Source: a virus. From it: a DNA stretch of 40,639 nt. Both the position numbers and the translations under genes were made by a program. How positions within the stretch are numbered: the first letter of the stretch is position 1; each line of letters starts with the position of its first letter. Location of the stretch: positions 1-40,639 of the IMG/VR virus record IMGVR_UViG_3300044833_000040; one strand, written 5' to 3'. The notes beneath the pieces were generated by a model. The model made no database searches. It had not been told where the DNA came from and was given only the letters and a program-made list of their open reading frames with translations. Of the stretch, positions 1,322-40,149 are shown piece after piece.

Positions 1322-1507
1322 ATGACCGATAAGTTATTGACTGTCGCCGCTGCCGCCGAGGCGCTGGGCATGTCCGAGAAGGGTATCAGGAACTGGATAC
1401 TCCTGCGCCAGATCGCCTACGTTAAGTTACCGCAGGGGCCAGTCAGGATCAAGGAGTCCACGATTCAGGATTTGATTGAGGAGGGGACGGTGCGCGCGCT
1501 GCATTAA
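1322..1507 (+). CDS. xis: Excisionase-like HTH DNA-binding protein
   Basis: A 61-residue protein made almost entirely of one MerR/excisionase-type (HTH_17) domain. The N-terminal LLTVAAAAEALGMSEKGIRN segment has the expected spacing of the two DNA-contacting helices, followed by a wing and a short C-terminal helix. Its size, basic character and position divergent from int fit a recombination directionality factor that would bend attP DNA and favour excision. The family also contains plain transcription regulators, so control of int is an alternative. A start at the ATG of 1322 gives a complete domain. Confidence 0.7.
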   Translation: MTDKLLTVAAAAEALGMSEKGIRNWILLRQIAYVKLPQGPVRIKESTIQDLIEEGTVRALH

Positions 1508-1520
1508 AAGATGCATGATG

Positions 1521-1534
1521 TGACGTATCCGTCA
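1521..1534. promoter_or_regulatory. Small dyad before the XRE regulator
   Basis: TGACG-TATC-CGTCA forms a perfect 5-bp-arm inverted repeat 36 bp upstream of the XRE-type gene, with a further CGTCA at 1556-1560 nearer the start codon. Small XRE regulators often control their own promoter through such sites, so this is a candidate autoregulatory operator. Confidence 0.4.
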
Positions 1535-1569
1535 TATTCCAGAGCGTCCCATGTGCGTCATGCTATGTC

Positions 1570-1785
1570 GTGCAGACGACAATCCAGCAGAGATTCGGCA
1601 GGCGCATCGTCGCGCTGCGATCCGAGCGCGGAATCACGCAGGAGCAACTCTGCGAGCGGTCCGGACTCAGCCGCGAGCACATCAGCTATTTGGAAAACGG
1701 CCACCGCCAGGCGTGCCTGATCAACATCGGCCGGCTCGCGAAGGCGTTCTCTCTGACTATTTCGGAGCTGATGCAGGGGGTCTAG
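1570..1785 (+). CDS. Small XRE-family transcriptional regulator
   Basis: A 71-residue protein consisting of one HTH_3 domain. Residues 12-66 show the full pattern: RSERGITQEQL, then SGLSREHISYLENG as the recognition region, then IGRLAKAFSLTISEL. There is no dimerisation or protease domain, so it resembles Cro or restriction-modification controller proteins rather than a CI-like repressor. The start is a GTG; no strong Shine-Dalgarno sequence is visible, so the start is less sure than the domain. The stop codon shares CTAG with the stop of the convergent gene at 1782. It probably acts at the dyad at 1521 or elsewhere in the lysogeny region, which is inference. Confidence 0.8.
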   Translation: MQTTIQQRFGRRIVALRSERGITQEQLCERSGLSREHISYLENGHRQACLINIGRLAKAFSLTISELMQGV

Positions 1786-1967
1786 CGGGGTGCGCCGTCG
1801 CACTTTGGCACATGCTTGCGGCGCTCCATATAGCCCATCTCGACGCCGCACTTGGGGCATGGAGACAGCTTCTTCGGGCGCCCCTGTCCGTGACCGGGAC
1901 GCAAGGCCATACGCTTGCTGGACTCGCGGAAGATGTCGGCGTCGGGGACGGTGGAGAGATCGATCAC
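1782..1967 (-). CDS. Small zinc-finger-like phage protein
   Basis: About 61 residues with a zinc-ribbon-like end: CPKCG, then a basic stretch and HVPKC, preceded by a basic GRPKK hook. The N-terminal segment DLSTVPDADIFRE looks like a conserved protein start rather than random sequence. That argues for the GTG at 1967, one base after the upstream gene's stop, over the ATG at 1910 that would cut this part off. An ORF extending to 2057 would overlap the upstream gene by 89 nt. Metal-bound nucleic-acid binding is likely; no named function was recognised. Confidence 0.6.
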   Translation of the reverse strand: MIDLSTVPDADIFRESSKRMALRPGHGQGRPKKLSPCPKCGVEMGYMERRKHVPKCDGAPR

Positions 1968-1968
1968 G

Positions 1969-2232
1969 CTAGTGGCCGACCTTGATTCCACGCTTGATGT
2001 TAGTGAGTGGGGTAGCGGCGTGACGGGTGGCGGCATCAATTTCTTCCTGCCGCGCATCGTAGTCGGGGTCGATGGTCGCCGTCACGGGGCAGCTTGCGGG
2101 AATGAGTTGCTCGGCGCGATGGGCAATCCCCTTGGCGATCGCCTCCGCCTCGTCTGTGGCCCGCACCTTGATGTGCTCGACAACCTTTACCTGCTCGGCA
2201 TTCTTCCAGATTTTGATCTCATAGACTGGCAT
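1969..2232 (-). CDS. Hypothetical 87-residue phage protein
   Basis: The sequence begins with a likely beta strand (PVYEIKIWK) and has an acidic-basic helix around DEAEAIAKGIAHRAE. No family was recognised. The start at 2232 is well supported by an AGAGGAG Shine-Dalgarno sequence 6 bases upstream, and a promoter-like TTGACG-N17-CATGAT lies at 2261-2289. It heads a two-gene leftward unit with the zinc-finger gene at 1782-1967, opposite in direction to the morphogenesis genes. Such small leftward units near int are often expressed in the lysogen; that is inference. Confidence 0.6.
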   Translation of the reverse strand: MPVYEIKIWKNAEQVKVVEHIKVRATDEAEAIAKGIAHRAEQLIPASCPVTATIDPDYDARQEEIDAATRHAATPLTNIKRGIKVGH

Positions 2233-2260
2233 CGCGTCTCCTCTGTCTGCTTACATAAAC

Positions 2261-2289
2261 ATCATGCGCTAAAACTGTTTTTACGTCAA
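2261..2289 (-). promoter_or_regulatory. Candidate promoter of the 2232 leftward unit
   Basis: On the minus strand TTGACG (2284-2289) and CATGAT (2261-2266) are separated by 17 bp, a good sigma70 layout (5/6 and 4/6 matches), followed by a short leader with a Shine-Dalgarno sequence. The rest of the 258-bp gap 2233-2490 holds a TGCAC/GTGCA inverted repeat at 2305-2321 and two direct CTTATGG repeats (2448-2454 and 2469-2475, 21 bp apart) just upstream of terS, which may bind a regulator. No gene was seen in this gap. Confidence 0.5.
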
Positions 2290-2490
2290 GCTCAAAATGC
2301 AGTGTGCACCAAAATAGTGCAAATGGGGAGCTGATGCTGGGGGTGTGAGGGTGGGGGACGAGCAAACGCAAGGACTTATCCTGTGATGTCGCTGTCACCA
2401 TGCTCTGTGCTTGTTGCAAGCGAGCATAGCATACGCGTGTCAAGCTCCTTATGGCGATATAAGTTTTGCTTATGGTAGGCTTGGGCCATA

Positions 2491-37461: not shown

Positions 37462-37646
37462 CCAGCTGCCTCCATCGCCGCGTTGCAATAAATGCAATCC
37501 GGCACGCCGGTCCTGCTCGCGCATTGATGGCCTCCCGTTTTACTTACACAGTCGAGCCCGTGGCAGCGGTAGACCAGAAATCCGCCATGCCTTGGCGATG
37601 GCTGCATCTCTTCGGCGCGGATGCGCGACCAGTTAACCGCGCTCAT
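37458..37646 (-). CDS. 62-residue CxxC protein
   Basis: The ATG at 37646 overlaps the previous stop by 4 nt. The product has CHGLDC, a CAS in the middle and CIYC near the end, so a zinc site is likely; the N-terminal part (NWSRIRAEEMQPSPR) is basic. No family was recognised. The long upstream ORF in this frame lies antisense-free but inside the previous gene and lacks protein-like composition. Confidence 0.6.
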   Translation of the reverse strand: MSAVNWSRIRAEEMQPSPRHGGFLVYRCHGLDCVSKTGGHQCASRTGVPDCIYCNAAMEAAG

Positions 37647-38080
37647 AGCGCCTTCCATTTCGCGACTTGGACGATAATCTCGGCCCACACATCCCGCGCC
37701 GCCACGTACTCCTCTGGGTGCGCCTTGCGGTGGGTCTCCTGCGCCAACTCCGCATCGCGCTCCGCCTGCACCGTCTCGGCCTCCCTGCGCCGCGCCTTGG
37801 CCGCGCGAATGGCTCCCTCCATCACGTCCAGTGCCGGGAACGCCGTTTCGAACTCGCCACGATTGCGGCCCAGCCAATCGAGCCCGGTGACGATATCCGC
37901 GTCCTCAAAACAGGCCAGATCCGCTGCCAAGACGAGGTAATCCGCCGTATCCAGACGAGCCTGGCGGCGTATACCCAGCCTCGTCAGCGCCATCACAATC
38001 TGCTGCTCTCTCGCCGATGATTCGGATGGCTTCGCGGGCTGCATCCATGCTGGATTCGGTTTTCGATTTGTAAGTTCCAT
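37643..38080 (-). CDS. Helical protein overlapping the replication gene
   Basis: 145 residues. The ATG at 38080 has an AGGAGG site 6 bases upstream, so the gene overlaps the end of the replication protein gene by 176 nt in another frame. Helices include QQIVMALTRLGIRRQARL and a long charged coil (AAKARRREAETVQAERDAEL). A helicase-loader or replication partner role would fit its place after the initiator-like gene, as P follows O in lambda, but no family was recognised. A later ATG (37993) would reduce the overlap to 89 nt. Confidence 0.66.
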   Translation of the reverse strand: MELTNRKPNPAWMQPAKPSESSAREQQIVMALTRLGIRRQARLDTADYLVLAADLACFEDADIVTGLDWLGRNRGEFETAFPALDVMEGAIRAAKARRREAETVQAERDAELAQETHRKAHPEEYVAARDVWAEIIVQVAKWKAL

Positions 38081-39050
38081 TGCTGCCTCCTGGTGCGCTT
38101 ACCGCTCCGTCCTGGGCCTTCGCCAGCCAGTTGCCGATGAATCGCGGCATCCCTTTCGGCGTCTTGCGATGGGTTGAATTCGTGATGAGCCACGTTCGCA
38201 TCTTGGCAAACTGATCCATCACGTTCACGGCCGGGTGCAGCGTCACCATCTCGCGGTAGAGCGCTTCGGGGACCGGCCATTCGCCTTGGGTGCCAGGGAG
38301 CGGAAGATCGAAGACTCCGGGCGAAGCTGCAGCGGGAACCGCGTCAGCGGTGGACGCAAGAGGTTCTTGTTTCTTCTCTGGCTTTGGCTCTGGCTTAGGC
38401 AAAGGCTTAGGCTTAGGCTTAGGCTTAGGCAGGACGCCGTTGTCCGACAACGGCAGACACGCAACTCCGCAGGCGTCCGAAATGTGCCGCAGCAGTTCAT
38501 CGGAAGGGGAAAACCATTCCCCCGTTTGGCGATATGCTGCGAACCGCTTGTGAAGGTCGATCTCAAGATTCCTTGTCCCGCGCACACTGCCAATGATCTC
38601 GAGACGCTCTGGGCACCCTGTTTGCAGCGCCTTCAGGCGGGAATCAACACTTCCCTCAGTAAACCCAACCTTGATGAGGCCATTCACTGTTCCGCGGATA
38701 AAGTAAATCCAAGGTCCAGACTTTCCACCAACAAATCCAGATCGCTCTAACTGCTTCTTGGTGGCATCGTCGCAGTGCTCCATCCAGTCATGCACTAGAA
38801 GCCGGTGCTCCTCGTCAATATCTAGCCATCCTGAAGCTAGAAGTCCCTGCACGAGCGCATCAGGATCTTCCCTCCAATCAATCTGAAGCGAGATGTCCTC
38901 ATTCGATAGCTTCCCGATATTGCCGATCGGCGTCTCCCGTGCCGTCAGGTGCCAGAGCGACTCCAAGATGCCGACCGCGACATACTGCGGGCAGTTCAGT
39001 GCCCGCATGAGTCGCTTGAGCTTGGTGTGCTGCATGGCTGTGCGCTTCAT
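37905..39050 (-). CDS. Replication protein with internal GIY-YIG domain
   Basis: 381 residues. Residues 10-105 match the winged-helix N-domain of phage replication proteins (QYVAVGILESLWHLTARETP, then VHDWMEHCDD). Residues about 113-192 are a T5orf172/MUG113-type GIY-YIG module: IYFIRG, LIKVGFT, RLKALQTGCP, EIDLHKRF and GEWFSPSDEL. A Lys-Pro linker (205-226) follows, then a part with NSTHRKTPKGMPRFIGNWL, usual in initiator C-domains. The module lies between normal halves in one open frame. The protein probably opens or binds the origin; a nuclease role of the module is inferred. The ATG at 39050 overlaps the previous stop. Confidence 0.82.
   Translation of the reverse strand: MKRTAMQHTKLKRLMRALNCPQYVAVGILESLWHLTARETPIGNIGKLSNEDISLQIDWREDPDALVQGLLASGWLDIDEEHRLLVHDWMEHCDDATKKQLERSGFVGGKSGPWIYFIRGTVNGLIKVGFTEGSVDSRLKALQTGCPERLEIIGSVRGTRNLEIDLHKRFAAYRQTGEWFSPSDELLRHISDACGVACLPLSDNGVLPKPKPKPKPLPKPEPKPEKKQEPLASTADAVPAAASPGVFDLPLPGTQGEWPVPEALYREMVTLHPAVNVMDQFAKMRTWLITNSTHRKTPKGMPRFIGNWLAKAQDGAVSAPGGSNGTYKSKTESSMDAAREAIRIIGERAADCDGADEAGYTPPGSSGYGGLPRLGSGSGLF
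38392..38430 (-). repeat. GGCTTA hexamer repeat coding for Lys-Pro
   Basis: Four exact GGCTTA units at 38404-38427, one more at 38392 after a short break, and a partial unit at 38428-38430. In the replication gene they encode the Lys-Pro run of the linker. Whole-unit slippage would add or remove Lys-Pro pairs without a frameshift. Confidence 0.85.
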
Positions 39051-39919
39051 AGTCCGCATACCCCTAAGCACTCCCGGCTGAAGTTGTCTTCGCGCCAGAA
39101 TCCAATCCTCTCTTGCCCTTCATGGGCTGCCGTCTTAGGCTTGAAGTCGATCTGCACGAGCGGCTTGCAGGATCGGTGCAGGAACATGTGTGCATCCATG
39201 TTCCGGTTCACAATCGCTCCGGGACGCCTCAAGGCTTCATCGACCTCCACGGCCCGCGCCCAGTCCTCTGGCACGGACTTGACGTTCTCCCATTCCGCAT
39301 CGTCGTGGAACGGGCAGAACACGCAGGCGGACCGTGGAACCTCATGCGGAACGTCGAAGCGTTCCCTAATCCAGTCCTTACAGTCGCGTCGTGTCATGTG
39401 GCGCTCAATCAAAGGTGCCCGCATCTCGCCCAGAGTGCGCCTCTTCAGCATCCGCGTGAATCGCCCGTGCTCGTCGACGGAGATCCCAACATACTGATGG
39501 ATAGAGAACTCCTTTTTGGGGATAGCGCGTCCGGGAGCGAGCCCGCAGAGTTCACGGCGGATTGTCCGCTCGATTACTTCGATCTTGTATTCAGCGGAGC
39601 ACTGGCGGCGCGTCTGCCCTGCATCGTCGGCACCCGGCATAATCGTGAACGCAGGGATAGAGGCAAACCGCTGGCCGGTTGAATTCTCCCCGCGCATCAG
39701 GTCATCGCCGAGCCGCGACCCCTTACCGCGAATCAGGATCGGCGGCCCATTGAGCGAAAGGAGCCAATTCACATGTTTGTAGACCGCAACCGGCTCTTCT
39801 CCAGGGTCCGCCATGATGGCGAAGTCAATCTGCACGTCAAGCTCCCCGCGCATAAACATCAGGTAGAGCGTCGTACTCTGCACGCCGGCCCCGAGATTGA
39901 GGACATGGATATCCTTCAC
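39047..39919 (-). CDS. PP-loop (PAPS reductase-like) protein with Fe-S cysteines
   Basis: 290 residues. The start has a PP-loop variant, LNLGAGVQSTTLYLMF, and ADPGEEP, as in phage members of the PAPS reductase / adenine nucleotide alpha-hydrolase group. Cys107 (RRQCSAEYK), Cys199 and Cys202 (CVFC), and Cys284 and Cys288 (CLGVC) could hold an iron-sulphur cluster as in DndC-like enzymes. It may activate a substrate as an adenylate for thiolation or another transfer to a nucleotide or tRNA; no dnd partners are present. The GTG at 39919 overlaps the previous stop by 4 nt. Confidence 0.8.
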   Translation of the reverse strand: MKDIHVLNLGAGVQSTTLYLMFMRGELDVQIDFAIMADPGEEPVAVYKHVNWLLSLNGPPILIRGKGSRLGDDLMRGENSTGQRFASIPAFTIMPGADDAGQTRRQCSAEYKIEVIERTIRRELCGLAPGRAIPKKEFSIHQYVGISVDEHGRFTRMLKRRTLGEMRAPLIERHMTRRDCKDWIRERFDVPHEVPRSACVFCPFHDDAEWENVKSVPEDWARAVEVDEALRRPGAIVNRNMDAHMFLHRSCKPLVQIDFKPKTAAHEGQERIGFWREDNFSRECLGVCGL

Positions 39920-40149
39920 AGCCCCACCTCCGCACCCGCATCGCTCAGCGCGACCTCGGCCTTGAGCTTGCGGATGCCGTCGGCGCACGCCGGAAAGAGG
40001 GATTGCACCTCGCAATACTGCGCGGCCAACTCCAGGCCGAACTGGATGCCGCGCGTGTAGATGGCTTGGCAGGCGGCGAGCAGCAATTTGTCTTCAGGCA
40101 CAGCGAGGGCGTTGACGCCAATTGGCGACTTATCCATTCCGGTTTTCAT
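39916..40149 (-). CDS. Hypothetical 77-residue protein, first of operon I
   Basis: The ATG at 40149 has AAAGG 7 bases upstream. The middle (IYTRGIQFGLELAAQYCEV) resembles the N-terminal part of the 77-residue protein at 4338, and the later helix (ADGIRKLKAEVAL) also has a counterpart. No family was recognised. Coding up to 40323 in this frame is unlikely because it runs through a promoter and a hairpin. As first gene after the structured leader it is probably made early. Confidence 0.62.
   Translation of the reverse strand: MKTGMDKSPIGVNALAVPEDKLLLAACQAIYTRGIQFGLELAAQYCEVQSLFPACADGIRKLKAEVALSDAGAEVGL

Follow-up and report, generated by a model that had tools for sequence, protein, structure and literature searches.

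A GIY-YIG module inside the probable replication initiator of an apparently P22-like temperate phage

P0001, a protein of 388 amino acids that is very probably the replication initiator of its phage, carries a GIY-YIG module of the MUG113/T5orf172 form between its winged-helix domain and its C-terminal initiator element, and is viewed here, tentatively and with somewhat less than even confidence, as a functional initiator equipped with a domesticated nuclease, which would cut the origins of rivals. The window, i.e., the whole stretch of DNA analysed, is a virus sequence of 40,639 bases, apparently of a P22-like temperate phage, in which integrase, terminase, portal, scaffold, and coat genes were recognised by Pfam and PHROG profile searches. 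The P0001 open reading frame (37905..39071, minus strand; delimited by its open frame, start context, and domain matches) runs without interruption from 39071 to 37905, also through the module, as a reading made from the sequence only had claimed, and comprises four sections: the winged helix, the GIY-YIG module, a Lys/Pro/Glu linker, and the C-terminal element. A GTG stands at its 5′ end, while ATG codons are found at 39059 and 39050, both with a Shine-Dalgarno-like stretch upstream, and one of these two is the likely start. The beginning of the gene is overlapped by a PAPS-reductase-like gene (39047-40015, minus strand; PHROG 424, E 1e-29). At the other end, the last 58 codons overlap, in a different frame, a downstream gene for a 145-aa protein (37643..38080, minus strand) endowed with a strong ribosome-binding site (AGGAGG before the ATG at 38080). 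This protein had no family match in the profile searches; going by its make-up only, it is possibly helicase-loader-like.

The winged-helix initiator domain together with a conserved tail ending in FVGGKSGP occupies residues 8-120 (38712..39050, minus strand) and was delimited with the help of PHROG 9474, a structural model, and 15 viral relatives. PHROG 9474, annotated as a replication initiation protein, matches residues 9-105 with an E value of 1.4e-15, and 15 IMG/VR proteins show 31-47% identity to the N-domain, whose relatives include initiators of Microcystis and Synechococcus phages. Its predicted structure is a winged helix (pLDDT 85). The top rows of the VIA comparison include the Rep initiators 4pql, 4pt7, 5kbj, and 4pta (Z 4.8-5.7, 77-79 residues aligned), which tie with the winged helices of RuvB, NtcA, and MarR, so that the resemblance concerns the winged-helix class in general and not RepA_N in particular. 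By sequence, a RepA_N domain is absent from P0001 (Pfam scan to E 1), and the resemblance to the RepA_N winged helices is structural only, and tied.

The C-terminal element (residues 256-345; 38037..38306, minus strand), with the pattern WLxxNxxxRKTxKGxxRFIxxWLxxxQ, lies behind a Lys/Pro/Glu-rich interdomain linker evident from the translation (residues 201-255; 38307..38471, minus strand). Residues ca. 256-342 match proteins of Vibrio, Ruminococcus, Salmonella, and Sinorhizobium, and several of the matching phage proteins are annotated as initiators or as replisome organizers. The element is found behind quite different N-terminal domains: it follows HTH_36 in an initiator from a Vibrio phage, DUF1376 in a prophage-like Salmonella protein borne on a plasmid, and, in one proteobacterial genome, a further kind of winged helix; it is also present in a Ruminococcus phage replisome organizer. 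These matches, together with that to PHROG 9474, bear out the earlier claim of an initiator-like N-domain and a C-terminal segment set about 80 residues apart. P0001 is taken as the initiator because both its winged helix and its C-terminal element match phage initiator families. No initiator, helicase, or primase match to PHROGs was obtained for 29 further ORFs of the window, nor for the other window proteins scanned, and no helicase or helicase-loader gene was recognised in the window in the PHROG scans. P0001 is thus the only recognisable initiator among the window ORFs scanned, alongside which there are short unrecognised genes. The Lys-Pro part of the linker is coded by a near-perfect run of TAAGCC hexamers (38380-38427, minus strand), for which slippage and an origin element are both possible explanations. 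Convincing origin repeats were not found near the gene, the only candidates being the linker hexamers and weak pairs.

The module itself comprises residues 121-200 (38472..38711, minus strand), as defined by PF13455, conservation among 25 modules, a structural model, and an alignment with the ICP1 protein Odn. Pfam MUG113 (PF13455) matches residues 134-196 with 45.5 bits against a gathering threshold of 22.3 (E 1.2e-11) and PHROG 8130 matches residues 110-200 (E 9e-20), and the strength of these matches indicates that the module is not a chance resemblance. The profile searches, which could have refuted the presence of a GIY-YIG module within a replication initiator, therefore found one instead, and the motifs quoted in the sequence-only reading are all there: IYFIRG at residues 122-127, IKVGFT at 133-138, EIDLHKRF at 170-177, and GEWF at 184-187. 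The joints had been placed near residue 105 and before the Lys-Pro linker; they are observed at about 120, after the retained FVGGKSGP, and at about 200, with the Lys-Pro linker following at about 215-232, which is close to that claim.

Structure prediction, proposed in the same reading as a check, likewise gave a GIY-YIG fold. The winged helix and the module were modelled separately; MAFFT misaligned the two domains when they were taken together. The model of the module has a pLDDT of 91, and in VIA its 13 best rows are all filled by GIY-YIG proteins, with Z of 4.1-5.5 over a background of 3.7 (a ribosomal protein); 1ywl, Slx1, I-TevI, UvrC, and HIGLE are named among them. Foldseek on its own gave no significant match for the model, and a sequence search of solved structures returned spurious ankyrin matches only. 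Among 25 aligned phage modules, no variation is seen at Tyr123, Lys134, Gly136, Arg145, Glu170, Arg181, or the EWF core, and next to none at His174. The active-site positions of the module are all kept, and its nuclease is apparently active. As GIY-YIG domains may also function as DNA binders, the fold might be non-catalytic, or merely DNA-binding, and tune the contacts of the initiator with DNA. We consider this quite improbable, since five initiator-borne modules from two families, as well as Odn, have the Tyr, Lys-x-Gly, Arg, Glu, and His positions in common, which would be unexpected for a decayed active site.

An intein was considered and rejected, the module being a continuous stretch of 80 residues in one open frame with no match to a Hint profile. 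More generally, the initiator-borne modules are fused in frame, with no intron or intein around the nuclease. The third-position G+C content is 0.60 in the module and 0.27 at the joint, against a phage mean of 0.75, which weakly fits a later arrival of the module in P0001.

Relatives with and without the module were compared, as had also been suggested beforehand. The module is absent from all 15 IMG/VR relatives found via the winged helix, most of which have, after the HDW motif, a helix, then a conserved FADGxxP, and then a variable linker. P0001 keeps the counterpart of FADGxxP as FVGGKSGP, and its module starts directly after it. Two further IMG/VR proteins of the same winged-helix family, L136 and L137, found in a pattern scan with a wider gap, carry the module at the same joint; L136 is 40% identical to P0001 over residues 10-199 (E 1e-44) and L137 34% identical over residues 8-210. 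Their C-termini both differ from that of P0001, the one of L137 matching initiator PHROGs 270 and 9327. It is worth adding that the L137 phage seems to have a second, separate T5orf172-like ORF (1502-2305, minus strand; YLLRR...YKIG...EWF). The absence of the module from the 15 relatives found via the winged helix, along with the kept catalytic positions, speaks against the refuting alternative of an old non-catalytic fold present in all relatives. In a tree of the N-domain, P0001, L136, and L137 fall among module-less relatives of one subclade, a placement that accords with a single gain for the three as well as with several.

In another initiator family (PHROG 16167), the module is found at the matching joint in p19 of the Myxococcus phage Mx8 and in L047/L048. 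The next gene codes for DnaC after Mx8 p19 and for DnaB in L047/L048. The modules of Mx8 p19 and P0001 are 47% identical. The columns of the module tree are too few to resolve the position of P0001 relative to Mx8, but the L047 module belongs to a different supported group, and at least two changes of label are forced. The initiator-nuclease build is thus rare and scattered, and it was probably acquired more than once. These data also bear on another possible role of the module, in which the winged helix would bind the origin of the phage itself and the nuclease would nick it, the resulting 3′-OH starting strand-displacement or rolling-circle replication, or the unwinding being eased. Such a role is in keeping with the intact catalytic positions and with the nuclease belonging to the only initiator candidate. 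It is nevertheless disfavoured, and in our opinion rather unlikely, because the module is dispensed with by most relatives that have this winged helix (by all 15 of those detected through homology), and because the DnaC and DnaB genes following the Mx8 and L047 counterparts point to ordinary theta-type loading; moreover, the module is retained in members whose C-termini have been exchanged, so that its coupling to initiation is not required.

How often such fusions occur depends on the manner of searching. Narrowly defined DNA patterns (HDW, K[IV]G, and GEWF in this order, the first gap being 95-125 bases) yielded only noise in IMG/VR and in GTDB genomes; L136 and L137 were found only after the gap had been widened, so that misses with the narrow patterns mean little. 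No protein with both the winged helix and GIY-YIG was found with P0001 as a query in 398 Pseudomonadota genomes, and in a cellular-genome sample PHROG 8130 detected module-only or initiator-only proteins among the ORFs inspected. PHROG 5718, named an HNH endonuclease, begins with the winged-helix domain of Mx8 p19, as seen via P0002 and L047, which hints at initiator fusions with HNH modules as well; a screen of 299 genomes at E 1e-15 did not detect this family. Fusion of nucleases to initiators as a general rule is likewise no more than hinted at.

Elsewhere in phages the module is mostly free-standing or fused to unrelated parts, as seen in 51 viral loci, among which Mx8 provides the sole initiator. 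To judge from the sequences, a 718-aa ORF of L099 (around 2501-2698) appears to have a MUG113 module at the N-terminus of a large-terminase-like protein, and a 532-aa ORF of L107 (around 2501-2731) seems to have the module flanked by an N-terminal part resembling ParB and a C-terminal part resembling a DNA methyltransferase. The nearly identical Sulfitobacter phages phiCB2047-A and phiCB2047-C differ in one block (PMC4047441). In phiCB2047-A this block comprises an initiator-like gene whose start is overlapped by a free-standing GIY-YIG gene, and in phiCB2047-C it has a “primosomal protein” instead (the swapped replication blocks are L133 15957-17353 in phage A and L134 29987-30772 in phage C).

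Free-standing T5orf172 nuclease genes are regarded as putative homing genes at the boundaries of phage exchange (PMC10448857). The nuclease of P0001 could similarly cut module-less initiator alleles, or the nearby origin, in co-infecting phages, the repair copying the module together with the replication block with no benefit to initiation. The clean joint occupied by the module in two initiator families and the difference between phiCB2047-A and -C are both in agreement with homing of this kind, which we still regard as unlikely: near-identical alleles with and without the module were not found, the closest module-less winged helix being 47% identical to that of P0001, and the modules are in-frame fusions, not borne by introns or inteins. 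Of the three functional ideas put forward in the sequence-only reading—nicking near the origin, marking of phage DNA, and a domesticated homing-type insert—the last fits best, Odn being thought to be exactly such an insert, while no support was found for the marking of phage DNA.

In the preferred reading, that of a working initiator with a nuclease directed against rivals, the winged helix would recognise repeats in the replication origin and the C-terminal element would recruit the replisome in the manner of ordinary phage initiators, both roles being suggested by the respective families. The nuclease would stem from MUG113/T5orf172 genes, which are common as free-standing units in phages, and the same winged helix would carry it to DNA. 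By analogy with Odn, it would then cleave the origins of rival replicons, i.e., superinfecting relatives or satellites, with repeats resembling those of the phage. The origin of the phage itself might be spared by having no cleavable site at the right distance, a precedent for which is I-TevI, described as binding but leaving the DNA uncut if a site is not within reach (PMC10448857). Several negative results count against this reading: for P0001, a rival replicon whose winged helix nearly matches its own was not encountered (the closest being 47% identical), whereas the RepA targeted by Odn is closely similar to Odn; convincing origin repeats were not seen near the gene; and helicase or loader genes were not recognised in the window. 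We would extend this proposal, with slightly more reserve, to an “armed initiator” type of protein, which would both start replication of its own phage and destroy or recombine rival replicons at their origins, and whose build would have arisen more than once (P0001/L136/L137; Mx8 p19; L047), with the C-terminus freely swapped.

The fusion has been visible in public data, PHROG 8130 being built around Mx8 p19 and labelled “unknown function”. In a search of open-licence full-text literature, with subscription journals outside its scope, no paper dealing with phage initiators with an internal GIY-YIG domain was found besides those on Odn. Among nucleases that the DNA-binding domain of an initiator directs to a replication origin, Odn has been studied best, and it is understood as a dedicated weapon, while the P0001-type nuclease resides within what seems to be a functional initiator, in temperate phages that include Mx8, a classical laboratory phage. 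If active, it would unite the start of replication and interference with competitors in one protein, and one would have to ask by what means the phage protects the origin of its own DNA. Armed initiators could also help to explain the ready swapping of replication blocks between related phages.

Odn (gp88) of ICP1 is an origin-directed nuclease. Its winged helix is of the initiator type, similar to that of the satellite it attacks, and a T5orf172 module comes after it; the protein cleaves the satellite origin in an iteron-dependent manner, and both origin cleavage in vitro and activity in vivo depend on its Glu180 (PMC8263062). Its predicted homologues are ICP1 gp5 and proteins of the coliphages Inny, Muut, and Mt1B1_P17 (PMC10448857). 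P0001 is similar to Odn in the order of the two domains and in the catalytic glutamate, Odn Glu180 aligning with Glu170. P0001 could therefore be imagined as a dedicated weapon of the Odn kind and not the initiator of its phage, the more so as Odn, with the same two-domain order, is an accessory gene in ICP1 (PMC8263062). This appears highly improbable in view of several differences. Odn stops after the nuclease, whereas P0001 retains the initiator C-terminus; Odn is accessory in its phage, whereas P0001 is the only initiator candidate, with no other initiator-like protein among the window ORFs scanned; and the Mx8 and L047 counterparts stand directly before DnaC and DnaB. A separate point of difference is the origin-binding part: the RepA_N domain of Odn was taken from the attacked satellite, while the winged helix of P0001 belongs to another family.

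Mx8 p19 (PHROG 8130), annotated as a replication initiation protein, shares with P0001 a winged helix, the module at the matching joint, and an initiator C-terminal part, and differs in the winged-helix family (PHROG 16167) and in the C-terminus. The PHROG 9474 initiators, e.g., that of the Microcystis phage Mwe-Yong1318-1, and the proteins sharing the C-terminal element have, like P0001, a winged helix, a low-complexity linker, and a C-terminal replisome element, but their linker is devoid of a nuclease. Finally, I-TevI and the T4-type GIY-YIG homing endonucleases resemble P0001 in having the catalytic fold linked to a DNA-binding part, but they are free-standing or intron-borne and lie outside any replication initiator.
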